DNA of 64,000 nt from Lolium rigidum (taxonomy: Eukaryota > Streptophyta > Magnoliopsida > Poales > Poaceae): contig NC_061512.1 in assembly GCF_022539505.1 (NCBI RefSeq), positions 247,458,510 through 247,522,509 on the forward strand, in the 5' to 3' direction. Of the stretch, positions 1,032 through 47,150 are shown piece after piece. The notes beneath the pieces are model-generated. The model saw only the letters and a list, made by a program, of their open reading frames with translations. It was not told the origin of the DNA and made no database searches. Made by a program: the position numbers and the translations under genes. How positions within the stretch are numbered: position 1 is the first letter of the stretch; each line of letters opens with the position of its first letter.

Positions 1032-3321
1032 GATATTACATTATCACCCATACTATTTCTCAACTTGTTTTTTACTAGACTCATTGCGGAAAATACTCTT
1101 TCAACATTCGCCGTCGCCACCGGTAGAAGCAATATCAATTTGACACATTTGAATCTATCATCTTTTCTCATGTCATCAATAAAGATCTCAAGTTGGGGTT
1201 CAAGTCTTAACAAATCCATGCTTGATATGTCATTGGGGTAGAATTGAGCAAGTCTCATTACCTTTTGTGCATCATAAGAAGCAAATGAATTCACGGGATT
1301 CAAAGCCGCCATACAAATAAGCAACTCCATGTTAACCTCATCAAACCGATTGTCAAGCTCTTGGATAACTTGGTCAACAACGCCAAGATACACTTCTCTT
1401 CTATAACGATCATCATTTGTTTGCTTTTCATAATACCGTTGTGATCTTCCATGAGCCACATAATTAGATTCCGGGAAGGAACTTCAATGCCATGAGTGTT
1501 GCAAAAGAATGTCACCTTTGCAAGAAATCTTTCCCATCCAAGTGATGACCTCATATCCTTCATTTTCTCCTTTGCCAATCCAACAAGCACCATTGCATTG
1601 AGAATATCTTGATCCTTCTTTTGCAAAGATATAGACAAGTCATTTATGTAGCCAAGAACAACAAGCATCAAGTTGAGATTGAAAACAAAGTCAAATGATT
1701 CAAAGGCCGCGACAACTCCTCTTATTCTTGTCCACTCACTCTTTTGTGAAGGATCTTTTCCAATCCTTACAAGCACCTCAAGTATCACCGGGTACATATC
1801 AACAATGTGTAGAATGGTCTTGTAATGAGAGCCCCATCGAGTATCACCGGGTCTAGATAAACCCATCTCTTGATTGAGTCCACTTCCACTTTCAATTTCA
1901 CCCATCTCAAGTGCTTGTAAAACTTGTTGAGCTCTAACATCTCGAAGCATGTCATGACGCTTGCAAGAAACTCCAATGATATTGAACAAATAAGAAACAT
2001 GATCAAAGAACCACACACATGCTTCATTATCCTTTGCCACGGCAATAAGAACCAATTGAAGTTGATGTGCAAAGCAATGTATGTAATAAGAAGAAGGTGA
2101 CTCTTTCATGATCAATGTTTTTAACCCCTTAATCTCACCCTTCATGTTGCTAGCCCCATCATATCCTTGTCCACGAATTTGAGTGGGAGACAAATGATGA
2201 TCTTTTAGCAAAGATATAATTGCAACCTTGAGAGACAATGAAGTAGTATCGGAAACATGAACTACTCCAAGGAACCTCTCACATATTCTTCCCAATTTAT
2301 CCACATAACGCAAACAAAGAGCAAGTTGTTCTTTGTGAGACATATCACTAGACTCGTCGGCTAGAATTGCATAGTGGTCACCATCAAGATCTTCAATGAT
2401 TAGTCTAGTAGTTTCTATGGCACAACATTCAATAATGTCATGTTGTATCCTTGGACTATTCAAGATGCAATTTCCGGGAGCATTCTTCAAAACAACCTTA
2501 TTGACTTCCTCATTACCTTCCGCAAGCCACTTTAGAAGTTCAAGAAAATTTCCCCGGTTGGTTGATTCTTCACTCTCATCATGTCCACGGAATGCCAATC
2601 CTTGTTTCAAAAGAAATCTCAAACATCTAAGAGAGTAAGTTAGCCTAGTCTTGTAAAGAAGTACATCCTTCTTAGACACCTTCATAAGAACATTATCAAT
2701 TTTGGTGTTGGGTGCAACAAATAAGTTGTACTTCTCTTGAGCTTGGTTGTGAATGCTAGTAACACCACCCACATGCTTCTTAAATGATTCGGGTCTTTTC
2801 CAATTTCTAAAACCATCTTTAACAAAGGCATCTCCTCCGGGACCTCCATTGGCTCTCTCTTTGAACAAGAAACACACAAAGCAAAATGCCGCATCCTTTC
2901 CGATACTATATTCTAGCCAATTGTAGTGATGAAACCAAACACAACTAAAGTGTCGATTCTTGCCCTTCTTTTTTGTTGGCGGGAAAGCATGCTCATATGG
3001 TCGGCATGGACCTTTTAGGATATATCCTCTCCGAACATCATCTTGAATATTAACATCATAACTTGAAATAGGAATCATGTCCCCCGGATCATGTGGACAA
3101 AAGTGAGCATCATATGACCTTGCATTTGGTTGTTGGGGTGAGGGTGGGTGTGGTGTTGTATCTTCAATGTCAATCTCACTCTCAACATCGGATTCGACTT
3201 CTTCATCGTGAACAATATAAGATTGGACCGGAGATGCAATCTTCTTTGATACTTGTTTCTGAAAAAGTAGCGCAATTTGGCTATTTCTCTTCATTTCTAC
3301 ACAATTGAAACATTCAAACAT
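1032..3321 (-). pseudogene. zf-TTF / DUF4371 / hAT-dimerisation protein (ZMYM1-like), frameshifted
   Basis: A transposase-derived protein of the large plant family annotated as zinc finger MYM-type protein 1-like. Seen: the first frame runs from 3321 (a more family-like start is MKRNSQ at 3294). It carries a TTF-type zinc finger (FSCVWFHHYNWLEYS...FCFVCFLF), then DUF4371 (YAILADESSD; GYDGASNMKG; HCFAHQLQLVL). After FCNTHGIEVP, at about 1475-1482, the family sequence continues only in another frame (YVAHGRSQRYYEKQ), which runs to the hAT C-terminal motif LLPVATANVERVFSAM before the N gap. One indel therefore separates body from tail. The segment before LLPVATA also looks shorter than usual for the family. 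Inference: a dead or domesticating transposon gene rather than a host gene; the missing 3' end is in the gap. Confidence 0.85.
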
Positions 3322-3935
3322 TACTAATTTAACAATTTTATGTGTTCTTCATCATATAAGACTTAACATACATATGTACAGAGAGCAGTTTATATGAAAA
3401 TAGCTGAAATGCACTAGCAGTTCATTCATACTACTGTGCTGAACAGAGTTAGAGATCAATATGTGCTGAATCATCTTGGTCAATTAGCGGAATAGGACTC
3501 AATGGTCAATTGCTCAATGGTCAGTGGCTCAGTGCTGCGGCCGGCGGCCGGCGGTCATCGCGGGCGCGGTGCGGCGGCAGTGAGGGCAAACCTGCAGGGT
3601 GTAGAGGGCGGGGGGCGGACGAGACGCAGGCACGCAGCTCGGGCGGGCGAGCGCCGGTCTCGGCAGAGACAGCGGGCGGGGCGCCGGGGCCGACGAGCAG
3701 CGGCGGCGGCGGAGAAGGGGTGGCAGACGGTGGGCGGCACCGGGACCGGGGCGGCGGGTGGCGGCTGCGTGCGGAATCGATGGCGTCGGCTGTCGGGGCG
3801 TGGTCGAGTCTCGAGTGCGAAGAAATCGGGCCTTTCTTCATTTTTTCTGTGCGGTATAGGTTTGGGCCGGCAGAATTCTAGGTGGGCCACGGCCCCCCCG
3901 CCCCCCCCCCCCGCGTCCGCCCATGGCTGGAGCTA
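3322..3935. other. GC-rich leader and possible end of the zf-TTF element
   Basis: The stretch 3530-3880 is strongly GC-rich with long open frames on both strands, which base composition alone explains. It lies upstream of the minus-strand zf-TTF gene and probably holds its leader. A C-rich tract at about 3892-3912, followed by cccatgg, resembles the C-rich ends I know beside this family in wheat. I could not define inverted ends or a target duplication. Confidence 0.35.
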
Positions 3936-8827: not shown

Positions 8828-9960
8828 TTATGATTGTCTTCTTGTGACATGTGTGTGGTGGTATTCTTTAATGATGTTGTCTATCGGATTCATGTCATCT
8901 GTACTTAGACCAAATCTTATGTTCCTTGCGTCAGCTGCAAAATCTTCGAACTCTTTGTCGATCTTTCTCCATTGCGTTCCATCTGCGGGGTGTCTCAACT
9001 CCCCGTCCGACTTTCGGTCCTCTTTGTGCCATCGGAACAACTTGGCATGCTCTTTGTTCCTGAACAGACGTTTCAACCGTGGTATTATAGGAGCATACCA
9101 CATCACCTTGGCGGGAACCCTCTTCCTGGGTTTCTGGCCCTCAACATCGTCACCAGGGTCATCTCCTCTGATCTTATAACGCAATGCAGTGCATACCGGG
9201 CATTCATTCAAATTCTCGTATTCACCGCGGTAGAGGATGCAGTCGTTAATGCATGCATGTATCTTCAGAACCTCTAAACCTAGAGGGCGAGACAACCTTC
9301 TTTGCTTCGTACGTACTCGGCGGGCAACTCGTTATTCTTTGGAAACATATTCTTCAACATTTTCAGCAAGTTTTCAAATGCTGAGTCAGCTACACCTTCC
9401 TGTGCCTTCCATTTCAGCAAATCCAAGTGTGCAGCCCAGACTTTTTCGGACCATTATCGCATCCCGGGTACACCGACTTTTTGTGATCCTCTAACATGCG
9501 ATCCAAATTCTCCCTCTCCTTTTCAGTTTTGCAGCGTCTCCGTGCATCAGCAATGGTCCGACCAAGATCATCGACGGGCTCATCACGTGCCTCTTCTTCA
9601 CCTTCCCCTTCACCTTCCCCACCTTCAGCATCCTCCATGAAAGTATCACCGAAATGATCAAGATAGTTGTCATCGATGAAATCATCCCCTTCTTCATCTT
9701 CTTTCATTATAACCCCTCTTTCTCCATGCTTGGTCTAACAATTATAGCTTGGCATGAAACCGTGCCGAAGCAGGTGCAGGTGAACTTCTCTTGAGGAAGA
9801 GTAACCCTTCTGATTCTTACGGCCAACACATGGACAGGTAACAAAACCCCCCTACTTGTTCGCATTAGCCACTACGAGGAAATCTTTCAAACCCGTAGTG
9901 AACTCGCCGGAGAGTCGGTTACCGTACATCCATTGTCGATTCATCTGCATTATTATTATA
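8828..9960 (-). pseudogene. CACTA (En/Spm) TNP2-type transposase, 5' part, frameshifted
   Basis: The protein that cuts and moves CACTA elements. Read from high to low coordinates: an N-terminal transposase-associated domain begins near 9952 (MNRQWMYGNRLSGEFTTG), then an acidic block (9707 downward: DNYLDHFGDTF, GEGEGEGEEEA), then YPGCDNG-KK, then the TNP2 core (GLEVLKIHACINDCILYR; CPVCTALRYK; IPRLKRLFRN; FGLSTDDMNPI). These family blocks lie in different frames; one shift occurs near 9420 and another near 9290. After FGLSTDDMNPI (about 8870) the sequence leaves the family, so the catalytic C-terminal half is missing. It lies on the opposite strand to the CACTA ORF2 remnant at 13-16 kb and probably comes from a different copy. 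Confidence 0.85.
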
Positions 9961-10284
9961 TAAAGTATATAATTAACCATCATGCATTTGTTAAACTAAC
10001 TAGCTAGAAATAATAGAAATTAAACAATGAACTACACACATGCATATTTTATCAATGACACATGAAAGGTTCAAGTTGCTAACCGCGATCGAGGAAAAAT
10101 AAATGAGAAAGCTCAAGTGTGGCTCGGACACTTCATATCATGTTTCTTTCTATCTCTCGGGCATTTCATCGAACACCTTCTGTGCATAAGAGGAACCAAA
10201 ATCAAACCAACCACCCACTTGTGAAGATTGTGAAGAAAGTGGCACCAAATGGCTAAGTGAGTGTGCTGAACGGGTATATATAGG

Positions 10285-10412
10285 GGAGGGGCTTTAGTCG
10301 CGGTTGGCCAGGCCAACCGCGACTAAAGGCCCTCACGTGCACCAGCTGGCCACCGAGCGCCCTGGGCCCAGACCTTTGGTCGCGGTTCGCCTCCCGAACC
10401 GCGACTAAAGAG
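10285..10412. repeat. CACTA-type subterminal inverted motifs
   Basis: Two head-to-head motifs: ttagtcgcggttggcc/ggccaaccgcgactaa, then ttggtcgcggttcg/cgaaccgcgactaa. I recognise this tagtcgcggtt...aaccgcgacta pattern from subterminal regions of Triticeae CACTA elements, where such repeats are thought to bind TNPA-like protein. It lies behind the TNP2 remnant (upstream on the minus strand). The CACTA terminus itself was not found. Confidence 0.7.
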
Positions 10413-11639: not shown

Positions 11640-12450
11640 TGTTGCAATCTCCTAGAATGTCTTACAACGTCTGTGCACTCTTTAGCACCAAAAGATATAC
11701 AAGTTTGTTACAAATTAAACACACATATACAACATCGAAACCCTATTTTTATATTGTACGCCGCGAAAACAATGCAACATCTCACATGTTAGTTCACAAC
11801 ATATCGTGTGCGAGTTCACAACAAAATGTGTATGAGTTTATTACAAATTATACAAACGTATACAACATTGAAACCCTACATTTATATCATACGCCGTGAA
11901 AATCATACACCACCTCAAATGTGTATTCACAACATCTTGCATGTGAGTACACAACAAAACACATATGAGTTAGTTACAAATTGAGCACACATATACAACA
12001 TCGAAACTCTAGATTTATATCATACGCCGTGAAAACCATACATCATCTCACATGTGGGTTCACAACATATCATGTGTGAGTTCACAACAAACTGCTTATG
12101 AGTTTATTACAAATTAAACACGCGTATACAAAAAAACCATACACCATCTCAAGTGCGTATTGACAACATCTTGCATGTGAGTTCACAACAAAACACATAT
12201 GAGTTAGTTACAAATTGAGCACACATATACCACATCAAAACCCTACATTTATATCATACGTTGTGAAAACCATACAACATCTCACATGTGTGTTCACAAC
12301 AAAATACATATGAGTTTGTTACAAACTGAACACACATACACAACATTGAAATCCTAAATTTATACCATACGCCGCAAAAATCATAAAACATCTCACATGT
12401 GTGTTCACAACATACCGCGTGTGAGTTCACAACATATATATTTTATGTGT
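11640..12450. repeat. tandem satellite, 133-bp period
   Basis: The anchor acaaatt(a/g) followed by acacacatatacaacatcgaaa recurs at about 11710, 11843, 11976, 12109, 12210 and 12320. The first four copies are spaced exactly 133 bp; the last two intervals are 101 and 110 bp because of internal deletions. Each unit contains tcatacgccgtgaaaa and several (a)gttcacaaca boxes. It precedes the CACTA remnant at 13 kb. Confidence 0.8.
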
Positions 12451-13031: not shown

Positions 13032-14670
13032 GAAGAAGGACATGCGAAAACTGAACTTAGGCACCCACAAACTTGGTCTCGGAGGTTTTAGGGTGGCGCA
13101 ACCGAAATGGGACGCGCGGATGAGGAGCGTGTGAAGAACGGCCTCGAGCCCCTCTTTCCCGCAATACAAAAACAAGCAAACCAGGAACTTTCTCCCGGCC
13201 CGGTACCGTATTGACCCGGAAACAAAGGAGCTCTACCACCACTCCGGATGTGAAGCGGTTTGAGGCTCTTCGGTAAGGAATGCACCCGCTTAATTAGCTC
13301 CTTTATGGTTGCATTCTTATTGATGAATCCAAATTTCTAAATGGTTCATGCATGTTCCTCCCGTAGGCTAAGGAGGTTGTCATGGAAAGTGAAAAGGAAG
13401 CTAATAGCGGCGCGGGGTCCACGAGCTCCTCGCAGGTGTGCCCTTTGGGACAACCCTTTAAATAGGGCGTTGAATGCCCACAAGAAGAGGGATCCATTGA
13501 GTAAGCCGACATCGGCTGGTCGTGTGGTCGGCGAAGGATGCTCTATGAAATGGTCGGAATACTATAAGTCGGGGAAAAAGGAGAAAAAGGCCACCATCGA
13601 TGAGAAGGAGGTCGCACATCTCAAGGCACAAGTTGCGCAGATCCCGACATTGGTCGAGGAGCAAGTGCGGCAACAAGTGCAACATATCGTGGAGACCCAA
13701 CAGAGGACGCAACGACAACAAGTGGAGGACCAAGTGGGCACGACGCTTAGCTCCCTCATCCCAACCTTGGTTGCCGGTCTGGACGCGTGGTATAGGGGAG
13801 GACAAAAGGGGGAACCCCCGGTTCCCAGTTTCGCGGGCAGCAACTCCCACAACGTGGAGCCATCGGTGAGTCCGCAGGCGGCAACAATGGTGTCTCCGGC
13901 GGCACCAACCTTGGTGGCTCCCGCGGCGCCAACCGTGGTGGCTCCAGCGGCGCCAACCTTGGTGTCTCCCGCGGTGCCATTACTTCAGCTCAATGCACCC
14001 GTCGCTGCGGATAATACGCCGCCCGGCACCGCGCCAACAAGCGGCCACTCCATCAATTGCACGCCGCCGCCGCGGTGCCTCGACCTTAGCCGAGCTGGAC
14101 GCCATCACGGTAACCAACCCTTGGCCAATGACTTCCATATCCTTGCCTTTGACTAGCTAGCCATCCCTAACGCCCTACATGTTTTCCGCAGAGCTCCGCC
14201 GTCGACGTCCCATGCACTCTCCTCGCAGTTTAGTGAATGGCGAGTTGATCGATGTTGCCAAGGCCAAAATCGTTCAACCGAGCAACCGTCAGTTACACGG
14301 TAGACCCATGCAACCCGACGTGTATAGGATTCAACTGGTTTGGGTGCTTAGCGGCTACGACGATGTGCTACCTCCCTTTCAACCCCATGGTGCCGACGAA
14401 GATGAGGTCCTTACCCTCCAGCATTGCTTCAATTGGTCCATGGTTTGGCCAAGAGCCGATTCGTTTGGGGGCGAGGGACACCACCCCACGTACAACGACC
14501 CCCAGCCGTGCCGGCGCCAAGCCATGGCAAGACCACCCCAACGGTGCCGCCATCAGCTGATGTGGACATGCAGATGGCACAGGATCCGAACGATGGTCCG
14601 GACGAGGACAGTACGTTCGCCAACCCGGACTGCAACTTCGATTTTGGGGTGATGGACTACGATCTCGAGT
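13032..14670 (+). pseudogene. CACTA ORF2, Transposase_24-like (Ptta/En/Spm)
   Basis: The second CACTA gene, thought to encode the DNA-binding TNPA-like partner. Fragments in family order: KLNLGTHKLG (13.05 kb), LWDNPLNRALNAHKKRDPL and SAGRVVGEGCSMKWSEYY (13.44-13.57 kb), then a coiled coil EKEVAHLKAQVAQIPTLVEE (about 13600-13660), a proline/alanine repeat of 12-residue units (VAPAAPT-type, about 13880-13980), and a domain with AKIVQPSNRQLHG and YDDVLPPFQPHGADEDEVL (14.26-14.42 kb). Stops and frame changes occur between 13135 and 13340, at 14156 and around 14430, so no single ORF spans it. Motif order supports one decayed gene that continues into the Ulp1-like part. Confidence 0.75.
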
Positions 14671-14787
14671 AGCCAACCCTCTCAAGCTGCCGCCGAGGGA
14701 AAACCTATTGCAACAAGCGGCGCCTATTCTCGTTCTCAGGAGACGCCTCCAGCTGCCGACTTCACCGAGACTCAGCCGATAGCCGAG

Positions 14788-16073
14788 GTGAGAAGTGTTA
14801 TCAGTCCTAACACACTGAAGAAGGCTTGCGAAGAGGAGAATGCAGTCCCACTAAAAACGAAGCTGAAGGGACGGAAAAGAAAGAAGAAGGACGACAAGTT
14901 TGCCAGCCAGCCGGCACCTATCCGTGCTCAGGACGGGCCACCAGTGCCCAAGAATATAGAGGCGAGGGTGCATGTGTCGGGTGAGCGGATGCTAATTCAA
15001 AGATTGTACGATGGTGCACCCGGTCCTATGCGATCTCTGGTTGACGGTATTATGTTTATGGAGGAGCGGCGTCTCAGGGAGAAAGATCATGGATACCCAG
15101 TGTATGTTGCCAAGGTGCCCTCAGGCCATGGCTTTGTCGATAGTGGCTTCGCGGAGAAGATCTTCCTCGCGGTATGATGACATCTTCGCCATGCTGAACA
15201 GCTATCCGCCGCACTACACCTTCATTCGCCTATACTCGCTCAGCAAGGCGATGCGGATCATTAGACACAACATCCCGGACATCGCGATAGCCGACCCCTT
15301 CTACATGCGTGCCGGTCCACTTGGCCACCGCCGGAGACCGGGCAGTCGCGAGTGGATACCTCAAAGACTTCTTTCTAGCGAACCGAAGAAGTGTAACATC
15401 CTCCCGCCCGTATTTCCGAGTAAGTCACCCCCTCACCGTACCGGTCTTAACTCGTGATTTTTTTAGATTTCAATCGTCATGTTCTTAAACATTATGTGTT
15501 CTACGCAGAGACAAAACCTGCACACTCATCTCCATAACCCCGAAACATTCCGTGGCCACATACCTCGATGCGGACGGTAAGTCAACCACGGACTACACGA
15601 ATGTCAAGGCCGTACTTGATGATGCTCTCAATGGCTACGTCAAAGCGAAAGGCAACATGCAAGAGGCCAAATGTTAGGTACGGGAAGCATGTGTTCAAGC
15701 ACCAAACAAAGTTTCCATGCGTCAAGAAGCCGCCTTCTAGTAACAAGGATGCCTACTACGCCCTCTATCACATGGATAAGTTCATACGGGACCAGCAGCA
15801 GCTTACGCTACTCCGAGCATCTCGGAGACTCGGGCCAACAAATTGTCGCGGGTCCCCGACGACGGCATCAAGCAAGACTTCTTCCGCATCCAAGTAGAGT
15901 TTTGTGAAATCATCCATCAAGATGTCGTTAGAAGCGCGGGGAGTTCTACGCCGGCTATCAGCCAGTCAAACAGTGACATAGACACAATGCTCCAAATGCA
16001 GGGTGACGACTACCGCTCATGGATGTGCTTGAAGAAAGGCGGCGGTTTTATCCACGCTCCGAGAAAGTCTTGA
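14788..16073 (+). pseudogene. CACTA ORF2 C-terminal part, Ulp1-like (C48 peptidase-type) region
   Basis: Grass CACTA ORF2 proteins often end in a Ulp1-like protease fold. Visible blocks in order: a basic segment KLKGRKRKKKD (about 14.86 kb), YPVYVAKVPSGHGFVD (15.09 kb), IAIADPFYMR (15.28 kb), a probable intron 15421-15508 (gtaagt...tacgcag), YTNVKAVLDDALNGY (15.6 kb), YGKHVFKHQTKFPCVK (15.68 kb), ALYHMDKFIRDQQQL (15.76 kb), and SNSDIDTMLQMQGDDYRSWM then GGGFIHAPRKS with a stop at 16071-16073. These blocks lie in at least three frames, so it is a pseudogene. The FPCVKKPP block would hold the catalytic-site cysteine if the family alignment holds; that is inference. Confidence 0.7.
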
Positions 16074-16234
16074 TGTGCGAGCCTAGTTATGTAGTTGTGA
16101 ACTAAAGACGAGCTTCGTTGTAATAAACTTTATCCGAGCACTTTACTTGCTATTAATTACTAGTTCGGCTATGTTTGTGAACTTATATATATGGCTCTGT
16201 CGTTTTCCGCACTTGATTTGGTCGTTAATTTTGT

Positions 16235-17870
16235 TTGCATATGCCGATGATTAGAATGGTTGGTCACTTGTACACTCGGGGTGGAGCAAGCGAGCCTGGT
16301 GTGATGGCACAAATATCCATGTCTTGTGCATCCTACCCGGCCTCGCTTACTCCATCCCCGAATGTTAAAATTTGTTTTGACCAACAATGTATGAGGCATT
16401 CCATTTAGTTCATAGTAGCTACTTATCTCTTGTTTGAGTTGGCACTTCTTAATTGCATTTGGCCGATGATTAGAATGGTTGGTCACTTGTACACTCCGTG
16501 GTGACGTAAGCGAGCCTGGTGTGATGGCACAAATATCCATGTCTTGTGCATCCTACCTGGTCTCGCTTACTCCATCACGGAATGTTAATATTTGTTTTGA
16601 CCGACAAAGTATGAGGCATTCCATTTAGTTCATACTAGCTACTTATCTCTTGTTTGAGTTGGCACTTCTTAATTGCATTTGGCCGATGATTAGAATGGTT
16701 GGTCACTTGTACACTCCGTGGTGACGTAAGCGAGCCTGGTGTGATGGCACAAATATCCATGTCTTGTGCATCCTACCTGGTCTCGCTTACTCCATCACGG
16801 AATGTTAATATTTGTTTTGACCGACAAAGTATGAGGCATTCCATTTAGTTCATACTAGCTACTTATCTCTTGTTTGAGTTGGCACTTCTTAATTGCATTG
16901 GCCGATGATTAGAATGGTTGGTCACTTGTACACTCCGTGGTGACGTAAGCGAGCCTGGTGTGATGGCACAAATATCAATCTCTTGTGCATCCTACCTGGC
17001 CTCGCTTACGCCATCACGGAATGTTAATATTTGTTTTGACCGACAAAGTATGAGGCCCTTGTCATTCTTCCATTTGCTTTCGTATTTCAAAATGCCGATG
17101 ATTAGAATGTTTGGTCACTTGTACACTCGGGGGAGGGGCTAGTGAACCTGGTGCGATGACACAAGTATCAATCTCTTGTGCATCCTACTTGGTTTCACTA
17201 ACCCCTTCTCTGAATGTTAATATTTGTTCCGACCAATAATGTATGAGGCATATGCTATTTAGTTGATACCACTTGGCTCTTTCTTCCATTTTAGTGCCGA
17301 TGATTAGAATGTTCGGTCAATCTGTACACTCGGGTGTCGCTAGTGAGCCTGGTGTGATGGCACAAATATCAATCTCTTGTGCATCCTACCTGGCCTCACT
17401 AACGCCATCCCGGGATGTTCATATTTGTTTCGACCAACAATGTATGAGGCATTCCATTTAGTTCATACTAGCTACTTGTTTCTTATTTGAGTTGGCACTT
17501 CTTAATTGCATTGGCCGATGATTAAATTTTGTGGTCACTACACTTGGGGGAGGCGTTAGTGAGCCTGGTGCGATGACACAAATATCAATCTCTTGTGCAT
17601 CCTACTTGGTCTCACTAACTCCTTCCCTAAATGTTAATATTTGTTTGGACCAACAATGTATGAGGCCCTTGTCATTCCATTTGCTTTAGTATCTCAAAAT
17701 GCCGATGATTAGAATGTTGGGTCACCTATACACTTGGGGGAGGGGTCAGTGAACCTGGTGCAATGACACAAGTATCAATCTCTTGTGCATCCTACTTGGT
17801 TTCACTGACCCCTTCCCTAAATGTTAATATTTGTTCCGACCAACAATGTATGAGGCATGCCTTTTAGTTC
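16235..17870 (+). repeat. tandem array of eight hairpin-forming units
   Basis: Eight direct repeats (period about 190-221 bp), each starting near gccgatgattagaatg at about 16242, 16462, 16682, 16901, 17093, 17296, 17515 and 17701. Each contains an inverted repeat of about 82-86 nt: 16277-16360, 16496-16580, 16716-16800, 16935-17019, 17128-17211, 17331-17412, 17545-17630 and 17735-17820. Inner arms ...cacaa/ttgtg... are nearly constant; outer arms vary but stay complementary within each copy. The array follows the Ulp1-like stop directly and could lie in the 3' untranslated part of the CACTA transcript. Copies 2 and 3 are almost identical (recent duplication). Confidence 0.85.
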
Positions 17871-17966
17871 ATACTACTTGGATCGTTTTTGAGTTTGCTC
17901 TTATTCGTTGCAAACATCTATGAGCGTGCACTAATGTTGCTTTGGCTTGTTCATATATGTGCGGAT

Positions 17967-18220
17967 ATGACGTGGTATGTCGTGTACAAGGGCAAGGTTC
18001 CCGGAGTCTACAACGACCGGGAGGAGTGTCGGAGACAGAGTTCACCGTTTTAGCGGTAATGAGCTACAAAGGGTACACCACTAGAGCGGAGGCCGAAGAT
18101 AGATACGCACGCTATTTGGCGGGAGAGAGGAGGGAGCGGAGGAGGAACCGGATGAAGACCACTATCATCGGGATGGTGCTATTAGTGACTCTAGCTCTCT
18201 TCTATGTGATTGTACTTTAG
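17967..18220 (+). pseudogene. small RNase H1 N-terminal-like (viroplasmin-fold) ORF with C-terminal membrane segment
   Basis: The start at 17967 gives WYVVYKGKVPGVYND, the hallmark of the RNase H1 N-terminal hybrid-binding domain. The frame breaks near 18035; the rest of the domain (SYKGYTTRAEAE) lies two frames on and runs to a stop at 18218-18220. Compared with the family pattern there appear to be two single-base insertions, at about 18035 and 18060. The tail has a basic stretch (RRERRRNRMK) followed by a hydrophobic segment (IIGMVLLVTLALFYVIVL), a likely single membrane anchor. It sits between the hairpin array and the CACTA subterminal repeats on the same strand. Probably a CACTA-borne accessory gene, broken in this copy. 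Similarity to the caulimovirus protein domain reflects the shared fold; nothing else viral is present. Confidence 0.65.
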
Positions 18221-18446
18221 ATGATCGATCTTGTGTAACCATTAGCTCATTTGCGACTTTGTAACCCCGTAACTCGTCTAATATTCGAAATCTTGTGAAT
18301 CATGGAGGCTAATGTGAAGAACTATGTATTGATATACTGTGATGTTGTTTATATGTGTATTTGTGCTGTATTTGTGTTGTTATACTGTTCTATACAACCT
18401 GTACAACTACCAGCCAGAAATGCAAAAAACAAAAACGAAAAACTAG

Positions 18447-18910
18447 CAGTGGCGCACTGGTGGACCCTGAGTGGCGCACGACCACTAAGTAGCAGTGGCG
18501 CACTAGTCTGGGACCTGTGGCGCACTACTCGGTGATCCCCTTCGAAAGTAGCAGTGGCGCACCGAAGCTACTAGCAATGGCGCACGTCTGAGATACAACA
18601 GTGGCGCACCTCGACAACCAGCAATAGCGCACCAGCTCGAGGTAACAGTGGCGCACTCCAGGAGGCAGTAGTGGCGCACCAAAAACTGAGAGTAGTGGCG
18701 CACTGCTGCTTAACAACAGTGGCGCACCCATTTGGAGTAATAGTGGCGCATCGCCAGACATTTCAATGGCGCACGGCGCAGATGCGCCATCGTTACTTAG
18801 GGTAGTTGTGGCGCACCAGTAGTGCGCCACTACTAAAACTTAGCAGTGGCGTGATAGTAGTGGCGCACCAGCAGTGCGCCACTGATGGGGAATAGTGGTG
18901 CGCCACTGAA
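18447..18910. repeat. CACTA subterminal repeats (agtggcgcac)
   Basis: About sixteen copies of (a/t)gtggcgcac spaced roughly 20-25 bp, plus three inverted copies (gtgcgccac) close to the terminus that form short palindromes, for example near 18805-18835 and 18855-18885. Such arrays are the expected binding region of the TNPA-like protein and support placing the element end at 18929. Confidence 0.9.
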
Positions 18911-18913
18911 TAG

Positions 18914-18929
18914 TTTTTTCCTAGTAGTG
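18914..18929 (-). other. CACTA terminal sequence
   Basis: ttttttcctagtagtg reads CACTACTAGGAAAAAA outward-in, a terminus I know from Triticeae CACTA elements. The following bases are tta; the matching left-side triplet is not available. Confidence 0.85.
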
Positions 18930-19016
18930 TTAGTCACCACTACATCGATGATCCACCGGCGACGCATCCAGAATTCACCATCTTCATCCGTTGGCATTAT
19001 GGGCCCACTTGGCAGT

Positions 19017-19186
19017 GACTTAATACGTTTGGCTCGCGAGCCAGCTCGAGTTTTCGTATAGCTCGAGCCGAGCTCATTTTTCCAGCTCGGGAGAGAAACG
19101 AGCCAGCCCGAGCCGAGCCGTTTTGGAGCGAGCCAAAGACTGGCTCGCACCGAGCCCAGCCCGAGCTGGCTCGTGTCCACCCTTAG
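19017..19186. repeat. gagctcgagcc-rich block ending in a possible hAT-type terminus
   Basis: Dense gctcgagcc/gagccagc repeats, ending gtgtccacccttag. On the minus strand this reads ctaagggtggacacgagcc, resembling plant hAT ends ((c/t)aggggtg-). The opposite end and an 8-bp target duplication were not found. Confidence 0.4.
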
Positions 19187-19440
19187 TTGCACCCCTGCCT
19201 GCCTATTCGCCGATGTGGCACCGTCGGTCTTCCACGCGCCTCCAACAATCTCTGCCCTCTGGCACGTGGCCGCCGTCTCCGGTTCCTGCATTCCATCAGA
19301 GCTCGGAGTAGGGAATTGATTGAACAAATTAGCTAGATAATTTCATCGCTAGTTATTTAGTTCAATTGGATACACTAATTGGATTAATTTGTAATTGAAC
19401 TGATTTGTTAATTTGACAATTATTTGTAATTGATTGAATG

Positions 19441-19895
19441 TTGCAGAAACATAAGATGAAGAGACTTTCTCCATCGATCTTGAAACTAAACCAGTTAACA
19501 AATCCAAATGCTCAAACAAAAGAAGCTCCTCGAAACAAGGAAACTCCTCAAGCCGAAGAAGCTACTGACACTGAATTAACTCCCCAAAGTGGACCTTCAA
19601 CTTCAATCTCAAGTGAAGCAAATGAAAACCTTGCATATCGTATTGCCAATGTCAATACTCGTGGGAGACTAGGTATGAATGTTATTGTTTGAGATCCTGG
19701 TCTTAGGACACCTATTGAGGACTTGGATCCAAACATTCAAGATGTTGCTAGAAGGGAGTATATTAATCTGGGTCCATGCCAACCTTTTGGTCACAAATAT
19801 AAGAGGACATCTTTTGGAAAAGTTGGTAGACTTAGAAGCTTTCATGATAATTGGTTTAAGAATAATGGTGATTGGTTGGAGTATTGTGTTCCTAA
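19441..19895 (+). pseudogene. zf-TTF/ZMYM1-like fragment, N-terminal part
   Basis: Homologous to the N-terminus of the minus-strand gene at 1.0-3.3 kb. LDPNIQDVARREYINLGPCQP here corresponds to YDVNIQDDVRRGYILKGPCRP there, and FHDNWFKNNGDWLEY to VWFHHYNWLEY. The leader ORF (from 19438, rich in T, E and S) stops at about 19690 and the domain continues in another frame from about 19700, so there is a shift. The domain stops dead at 19896, where a CACTA terminus begins. The remaining DUF4371 and hAT parts are absent downstream in this window. Confidence 0.75.
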
Positions 19896-46634: not shown

Positions 46635-47150
46635 CAAAGATAGATGGTTTATCATTTTTTGCGTGAAAAGTAATGGCTACAACAAATTGTTGATGGTTTA
46701 TCATTTTTTTGCGTGAAAAGTAATGGCAACAACAAATCGGTGATGCATGGTTTATCATATTTTTTGCGTGAAAAGTAATGGCAACAACAAATTGTTGATG
46801 GTTTATCATTTTTTGCGTGAAAAGTAATGGCTACAACAAATTGTTGATGGTTTATCATTTTTTGCGTGAAAAGTAATGGCAACAACAAATCGGTGATGGT
46901 TTATCTTTTTTTTTTGCGTCAAAAGTAATGGCTACAACAAATTGTTGATGGTTTATCATTTTTTTGCGTGAAAAGTAATGGCTACAACAAATTGTTGATG
47001 GTTTATCATTTTTTTGCGTGAAAAGTAATGGCAACAACAAATCGCTGATGGTTTATCATTTTTTTGCGTGAAAAGTAATGGTAACAACAAATCGGTGATG
47101 ATTTATCATTTTTTGCGTGAAAAATAACGCCTAAAAGAGTTTATAATTTT
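46635..47150. repeat. minisatellite, about 50-bp unit, about ten copies
   Basis: Unit gatggtttatcattttttgcg then tgaaaagtaatgg and (c)aacaacaaat. Two variants, ggctac...attgtt and ggcaac...atcggt, are intermixed. Long minus-strand frames here (MINHQQFVVAITFHAKN repeated) are only the translated repeat. Confidence 0.9.

Follow-up and report, generated by a model that had tools for sequence, protein, structure and literature searches.

The 64,000-nt stretch of Lolium rigidum DNA analysed here (hereafter the window) carries a tandem array of eight hairpins, which we cautiously regard as probably being a transposon-encoded polycistronic microRNA-like precursor, whose 3' strands would serve as guides against host Argonaute mRNAs. 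An earlier note on this DNA had described eight tandem units with complementary arms, and all of the arm pairs quoted in it are present in the sequence; the three-base rhythm of variation and the Argonaute codons reported below are additional to its reading.

Each unit starts at a common 5' box, GCCGATGATTA (at 16243, 16462, 16682, 16901, 17094, 17296, 17514, and 17701; start-to-start spacing 219, 220, 219, 193, 202, 218, and 187), and next comprises a hairpin (about 100 nt), a 3' box that is likewise conserved and ends in GTATGAGGC, and a spacer of 34–64 nt; unit 8 was given an arbitrary end. The array and its hairpins are located as follows:

16235..17870 (last unit to about 17880), plus strand: tandem array of eight hairpin units, delimited by repeat and box searches
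16270..16370, plus strand: hairpin unit 1; 3' guide candidate 16342-16362, antisense FGDGVSE
16489..16589, plus strand: hairpin unit 2; 3' guide candidate 16562-16582, antisense FRDGVSE
16709..16809, plus strand: hairpin unit 3, identical in sequence to unit 2; 3' guide candidate 16782-16802, antisense FRDGVSE
16928..17028, plus strand: hairpin unit 4; 3' guide candidate 17001-17021, antisense FRDGVSE with a different Gly codon
17121..17221, plus strand: hairpin unit 5; 3' guide candidate 17194-17214, antisense FREGVSE
17324..17422, plus strand: hairpin unit 6, the weakest fold (z -5.7); 3' guide candidate 17395-17415, antisense SRDGVSE
17538..17638, plus strand: hairpin unit 7; 3' guide candidate 17611-17631, antisense FREGVSE
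17728..17828, plus strand: hairpin unit 8, the strongest fold (z -9.3); 3' guide candidate 17801-17821, antisense FREGVSE

The spacers of units 1–8 are of types A, A, A, B, C, A, B, and C, respectively; identity is 92–98% among units 1, 2, 3, and 6 and 86% between units 4 and 7, and type C is loose, with 43% between units 5 and 8. Given this mosaic of spacer types, the array seems to have grown and to have been reshuffled via unequal exchange.

Folded singly, the eight hairpins reached -43.4 to -54.9 kcal/mol (z from -5.7 to -9.3), and for each of them 0/200 dinucleotide shuffles were as stable. In the minimum free energy fold of the whole array (1666 nt), each 3' arm (21 bases) has 14–20 bases paired within its own unit and 0–3 unpaired; units 6, 7, and 8 pair 4, 1, and 1 bases elsewhere. 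The check that the earlier note had proposed, folding each unit as well as the whole array, thus bore out stable hairpins whose arms pair within the unit. In silico, the units show one hallmark of plant MIRNA precursors, a stable stem-loop in which the predicted small RNA occupies a single arm and few bases are left unpaired. As to the strand, single folds were more stable on the minus strand in 4/8 units; folding of the whole array gave -618 for the plus and -573 for the minus strand, and the cells with opposed bases comprised 25 G-T versus 14 A-C, of 325. A covariance model built from the hairpin found the eight units on the plus strand and the same sites more weakly on the minus strand, with generic inverted repeats far below. 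The best hit of this model outside the array (10286-10336, E 0.0009) is a short GC-rich inverted repeat at 10284-10336. A search of positions 15000-19500 against Rfam returned 10 rows at E up to 5, none of them at the gathering score, and no match to a curated miRNA family.

The suggestion that the outer arms co-vary holds on three of five measures. In alignment A1 (36 pairs, 7 distinct rows, 500 shuffles), the rows of which are all copies of one another, with relatedness not fully controlled in the shuffle statistics, paired cells amounted to 97.6% versus 90.0% in the shuffles, cells with a change on both sides to 22 versus 9.3 ± 1.9, and the covariation score to 0.254 versus 0.106 ± 0.018, each value being reached by 0/500 shuffles. 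The other two measures were unexceptional: 8 pairs with a two-sided change versus 6.2 expected (51/500 shuffles reached this value) and 14 further pair types versus 12.7 expected (161/500). When the partner was shifted by 1–3 columns, pairing fell to 35.5–43.4%.

Variation is concentrated in the lower stem, the fastest part of the unit, where the mean pairwise difference is 0.30 and 0.26 in the two arms, versus 0.05–0.14 in the upper stem, loop, and flanks. Between units of a common spacer type, the lower stem and the spacer differed at 8/41 and 1/64 positions (units 1/2), 13/41 and 3/63 (units 3/6), 10/40 and 5/64 (units 1/6), and 13/41 and 4/64 (units 2/6), with p from 0.0003 to 0.017 for pairs that are not independent; swapping of hairpin modules between units could be an alternative cause of this faster change. 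Within the 3' arm, in a phase picked after inspection, each third column from 74 to 92 is variable (7/7, versus 2/14 of the others in columns 72-92; p = 0.0003). The 5' arm shows the same rhythm (7/7 versus 4/12 of the others, p = 0.007) in a test that is not independent of that for the 3' arm, and no three-base rhythm was present in the upper stem when tested. The sequence of the upper stem and loop (CCTGGTG..GATG.CACAA / TTGTGCATCCTAC) is almost invariant across the eight units, in contrast to the lower stem; it is a possible second guide or processing signal, and its near-invariance is unexplained by the anti-Argonaute reading.

The antisense readings listed above are the reverse complement of columns 74-94. 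Their codons are TTC/TTT for Phe, CGT/CGG/AGA/AGG for Arg, GAT for Asp, GGA/GGC/GGG for Gly, GTA/GTT/GTC for Val, AGC/AGT for Ser, and GAA/GAG for the last Glu, and the changes across units at Gly, Val, Ser, and the last Glu are solely synonymous. In antisense, the 7 distinct rows show 24 amino-acid differences, versus 67 ± 11 under column permutation (1/20000 as low). A comparably low count, 21, is obtained for the sense frame shifted by one base (SLTPS[PRL]N/D), and 0/3000 permutations reached it. Read in sense, the 5' arm is likewise quiet: after removal of units 1 and 6, the 4 distinct rows free of gaps show 9 differences (3/3000 permutations). The rhythm alone cannot choose the strand because third positions pair with third positions; the 3' lower-stem strand was taken as the guide because the 3' arm, and not the 5' arm, spells the motif cleanly.

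Compared with the codon spellings of FRDGVSE, an exact match to which has a probability of about 1e-9 per 21-mer at equal base use, units 2–4 show 0 mismatches and the other five 3' arms show 1. Among all N-free 21-mers of the window on both strands, none beyond the eight 3' arms lies within 2 mismatches, and five lie at 3 mismatches, including the 5' arms of units 2–4. The 5' arm is in these units a poorer copy of the motif, as would be consistent with a passenger strand. Against the spellings of YRDGVSE, units 2, 3, 4, and 6 stand at 1 mismatch and units 1, 5, 7, and 8 at 2.

RDGVSE lies within the PIWI domain of Argonaute, where AGO2 and AGO3 chains read IIFYRDGVSEGQF and the AGO10 chain 7sva reads IIFYRAGVSEGQF, with Ala replacing Asp; two typed AGO peptides containing the motif both match Pfam Piwi. 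The Argonaute chains examined have Tyr before Arg, not Phe, and the match checked spans six residues. F-R-D lacking Tyr is taken here as a feature of the AGO4 or AGO2 clades; AGO4-type plant Argonautes presumably read IIFRDGVSESQF, and Phe before Arg would on this assumption fit the AGO4 type alone. The Asp of the motif, which we take to be a catalytic residue, is replaced by Glu in units 5, 7, and 8, and this single mismatch at the Asp codon weakens the simple anti-Argonaute version. Outside the 21-mer, with LT before and T/A-R/K-stop after, the similarity to Argonaute ends (by eye). The natural 21-residue readings around the motif gave no PDB match (one tried) and no Pfam match (five tried), X-padded 7-mers, as queries too short to search, gave no matches, and the strings FRDGVSE, YRDGVSE, RDGVSESQF, and RDGVSEGQF were absent from the paper text searched.

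The earlier note placed the array directly after the ORF2 block of a CACTA element. This is mostly upheld: an ORF2-like remnant and a reading frame ending at 16073 lie upstream, and CACTA-like repeats and a terminal motif lie downstream. No left end of the element was located in the window, and searches gave no family name for the ORF2-like protein. The surrounding features are the following:

14574..15421, plus strand: remnant of an ORF2-like coding sequence belonging to the element, spread over several frames; 24 homologues among database proteins, with no Pfam domain
17967..18217, plus strand: mini-gene remnant, broken between two frames at 18050-18062; first half of RNase H1 N-terminal type (Cauli_VI, PF01693)
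18448..18907, both strands (15 plus, 3 minus): 18 subterminal repeats of the AGTGGCGCAC type (0–1 mismatch); 2.3 expected by chance
18917..18929, minus strand: terminal motif CACTACTAGGAAA, found by motif search and taken as the right end of the element

Of the terminal-motif patterns, the looser one gave 8 matches versus 6.7 expected, which is not above chance, and the stricter one gave 4 versus 0.7; the sole nearby candidate for a left end on the plus strand is an imperfect motif at 9870. With the right motif and the subterminal repeats found, and a named CACTA transposase solely on the other strand, the array would lie within the right part of a CACTA-like element. A CACTA-type transposase fragment (Transposase_21, E 3e-15) lies at 8828-9331 on the minus strand, in the opposite orientation. 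Another tandem array, AT-rich and with a period of about 101–133, is situated to the left of the hairpin array at 11702-12412.

The mini-gene directly follows the array after a gap of about 100 nt. Its Cauli_VI match (E 3.3e-6, above the Pfam cut-off) covers positions 2-25 of the 44 in the profile, and the second half alone, a hydrophobic C-terminal stretch, has no Pfam match. The mini-protein has 333 database relatives; the 120 listed include one record under the name Lolium multiflorum and one under Triticum urartu, which mark the window as plant DNA by content, and 6/7 of the relatives fetched have the hydrophobic C-terminal end.

Several other explanations of the array have to be weighed. 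The earlier note had left a choice between a selected fold and arms that convert each other. Folding and covariation speak for selection, and conversion is disfavoured because it should erase the bulges (near columns 39 and 73 of the consensus), the mismatches (29/70, 34/65), and the G-U pairs (13/87, 33/66) that are kept in 8/8 units. The same features make it improbable that the array is a DNA palindrome shaped by arm-to-arm conversion or by template switching during replication, with no selected function; moreover, two-sided change affects isolated base pairs, mostly at intervals of three columns in keeping with the three-base rhythm, and does not form tracts. Such a palindrome would draw on the known tendency of inverted repeats to template switching and on the mosaic nature of the array, in which spacer types are common to units with different hairpins. 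We consider it very improbable that the hairpins are eight repeats of an exon whose encoded peptide constrains the arms. Third-position variation in the arms would suit a short coding repeat, as would a sense frame that in all 8 units runs without a stop from the upper part of the 5' arm across the 3' arm, but coding leaves the complementary arms unexplained, the distance between the conserved 5' box and the upper stem (52, 53, or 50 nt) does not preserve the frame, 6/9 variable columns between 27 and 73 alter the amino acid (hand count), and the 3' flank of unit 5 contains a stop. In homology searches, the unit-6 peptide reading had no homologue, four readings gave no Pfam match above the cut-off (two weak TrkA_N rows, E 0.09 and 0.11), and the unit-8 reading retrieved from PDB two antibody-fragment rows alone (E 7.7 and 8.9).

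There is likewise little to recommend a binding array for a protein of the element, such as the RNase H1 N-terminal-like mini-protein: the proximity of the mini-gene and the binding of RNA-DNA hybrids or double-stranded RNA by this domain in other proteins would favour it, yet the codon rhythm and the synonymous spellings are left unexplained. Finally, the array might be microRNA-like or another structured RNA selected for folding, with a target other than Argonaute and with RDGVSE as a coincidence. Folding and covariation hold independently of the target, the antisense frame is no quieter than the sense frame SLTPS[PRL]N/D, and the similarity to Argonaute covers a short stretch, six residues in the chains examined. 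We nevertheless regard coincidence as unlikely, considering that it gives no reason for a three-base rhythm restricted to the lower stem and that a hand estimate for ~50 silencing proteins and two readings puts the chance at about 1e-4 when seven residues are counted and at 2e-3 when six are. Among the roles offered in the earlier note, a source of small RNAs fits best, whereas a protein-binding or stability role is less probable and explains neither the rhythm nor the Argonaute codons.

According to the anti-Argonaute reading that we prefer, a sense transcript through the 3' part of the CACTA-like element would fold into the eight hairpins predicted in silico, and processing by a Dicer-like enzyme would yield a duplex of 21–22 nt from each lower stem; the asymmetric bulge at column 73 might favour a 22-nt product, which is a guess. 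The 3' strand, antisense to the (F)RDGVSE codons, would be loaded and directed to Argonaute mRNAs, and the guides would cut or repress these mRNAs, resulting in weaker silencing of the element. Because the motif holds the Asp that we take to be catalytic, the host could escape mainly by synonymous change. Units with differing synonymous spellings and re-matched passenger arms would then account for both the covariation and the three-base rhythm, and the different spellings may cover different Argonaute paralogues or follow their drift. More tentatively, and as a possibility that we would not yet lean on, the array may be a multi-guide cassette against a near-unchangeable stretch of Argonaute, with guides diversified codon-wise along with synonymous paralogue drift, with each hairpin arm matched anew at every such change, and with the adjacent, nucleic-acid-binding mini-protein as a possible second weapon; the arms race between transposon and Argonaute would then be visible in synonymous sites. 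The copy of the array described here sits in a decayed element, and this counts against the anti-Argonaute reading.

The miR482/miR2118 family, which is host-encoded and regulates immune receptors, targets the P-loop codons of NLRs. The array resembles it in guide variation that falls on the third codon positions of a conserved protein motif, and differs in the motif itself, in its encoding by a transposon instead of the host, and in a proposed target other than immune receptors. Rice miR820 is, according to the accessible text of its description, a microRNA located in CACTA elements; DRM2 is the gene it represses, and microRNA and target site evolve together (PMC3459959). The likeness lies in a precursor within a CACTA or CACTA-like element acting, here as a proposal, against the host silencing machinery, and in a guide and site that change together, which for the present array is likewise a proposal (PMC3459959, accessible text). 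Differently from miR820, the present array has eight hairpins in a row, another sequence, and a proposed target that is Argonaute and not DRM2, and it is known from sequence alone. A resemblance of the upper stem to miR820 was dropped: the mature sequence, given as TCGGCCTCGTGGATGGACCAG in the accessible part of PMC4429473, does not occur in the window even when up to 3 mismatches are allowed.

Tandem plant microRNA precursors, among them miR395, miR156, miR166, and osa-miR1428, likewise carry several related stem-loops per transcript, but, as far as the accessible text describes them, they are microRNA genes and not a transposon array of eight units with synonymously differing guides (PMC2607281). 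Wheat miR1117 and miR1131 are annotated small RNAs that match wheat CACTA DNA; they differ in sequence by eye, and a silencing-gene target is not mentioned in the accessible part of their report (PMC3398953). Transposon small RNAs acting on the host silencing or stress machinery appear to be few, the accessible texts naming miR820 against DRM2 (PMC3459959, PMC5943564) and a transposon siRNA acting on UBP1 (PMC5943564); the accessible part of PMC13317346 cites anti-silencing proteins and mentions neither miR820 nor Argonaute. In the titles and abstract starts searched, with subscription papers and supplements outside the scope, no report of a transposon small RNA or array against Argonaute was recognised, and the titles and abstract starts likewise contained nothing on an RNase H1 N-terminal-type mini-protein in CACTA elements. 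Arm strings of 12–15 nt, the lower-stem strings of units 4, 5, and 6 and supplements being excluded, were found in no plant miRNA context in the main texts of papers.

If the anti-Argonaute reading is true, the array strikes at a core effector of silencing and several paralogues could be covered at once. Such an escape of a transposon from silencing would be checkable in existing small-RNA and genome data, with each unit predicting an exact guide and its target codons.

Beyond the window, a 17-mer scan of the array hit 0 viral contigs and 7 bacterial or archaeal contigs, the latter below a rough chance expectation, and neither the mini-protein nor the ORF2-like protein had relatives in viral contigs. 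Candidate target sites within the window outside the array had a best penalty of 4.5–6 and were judged unremarkable, with no null distribution behind this judgement. An open frame of 682 residues at 1300-3348 on the minus strand contains a DUF4371 domain (E 2.5e-71) and presumably represents a hAT-like type of transposase. At 46643-47127, a tandem repeat has a 50-bp unit in 9.6 copies with 91% matches.
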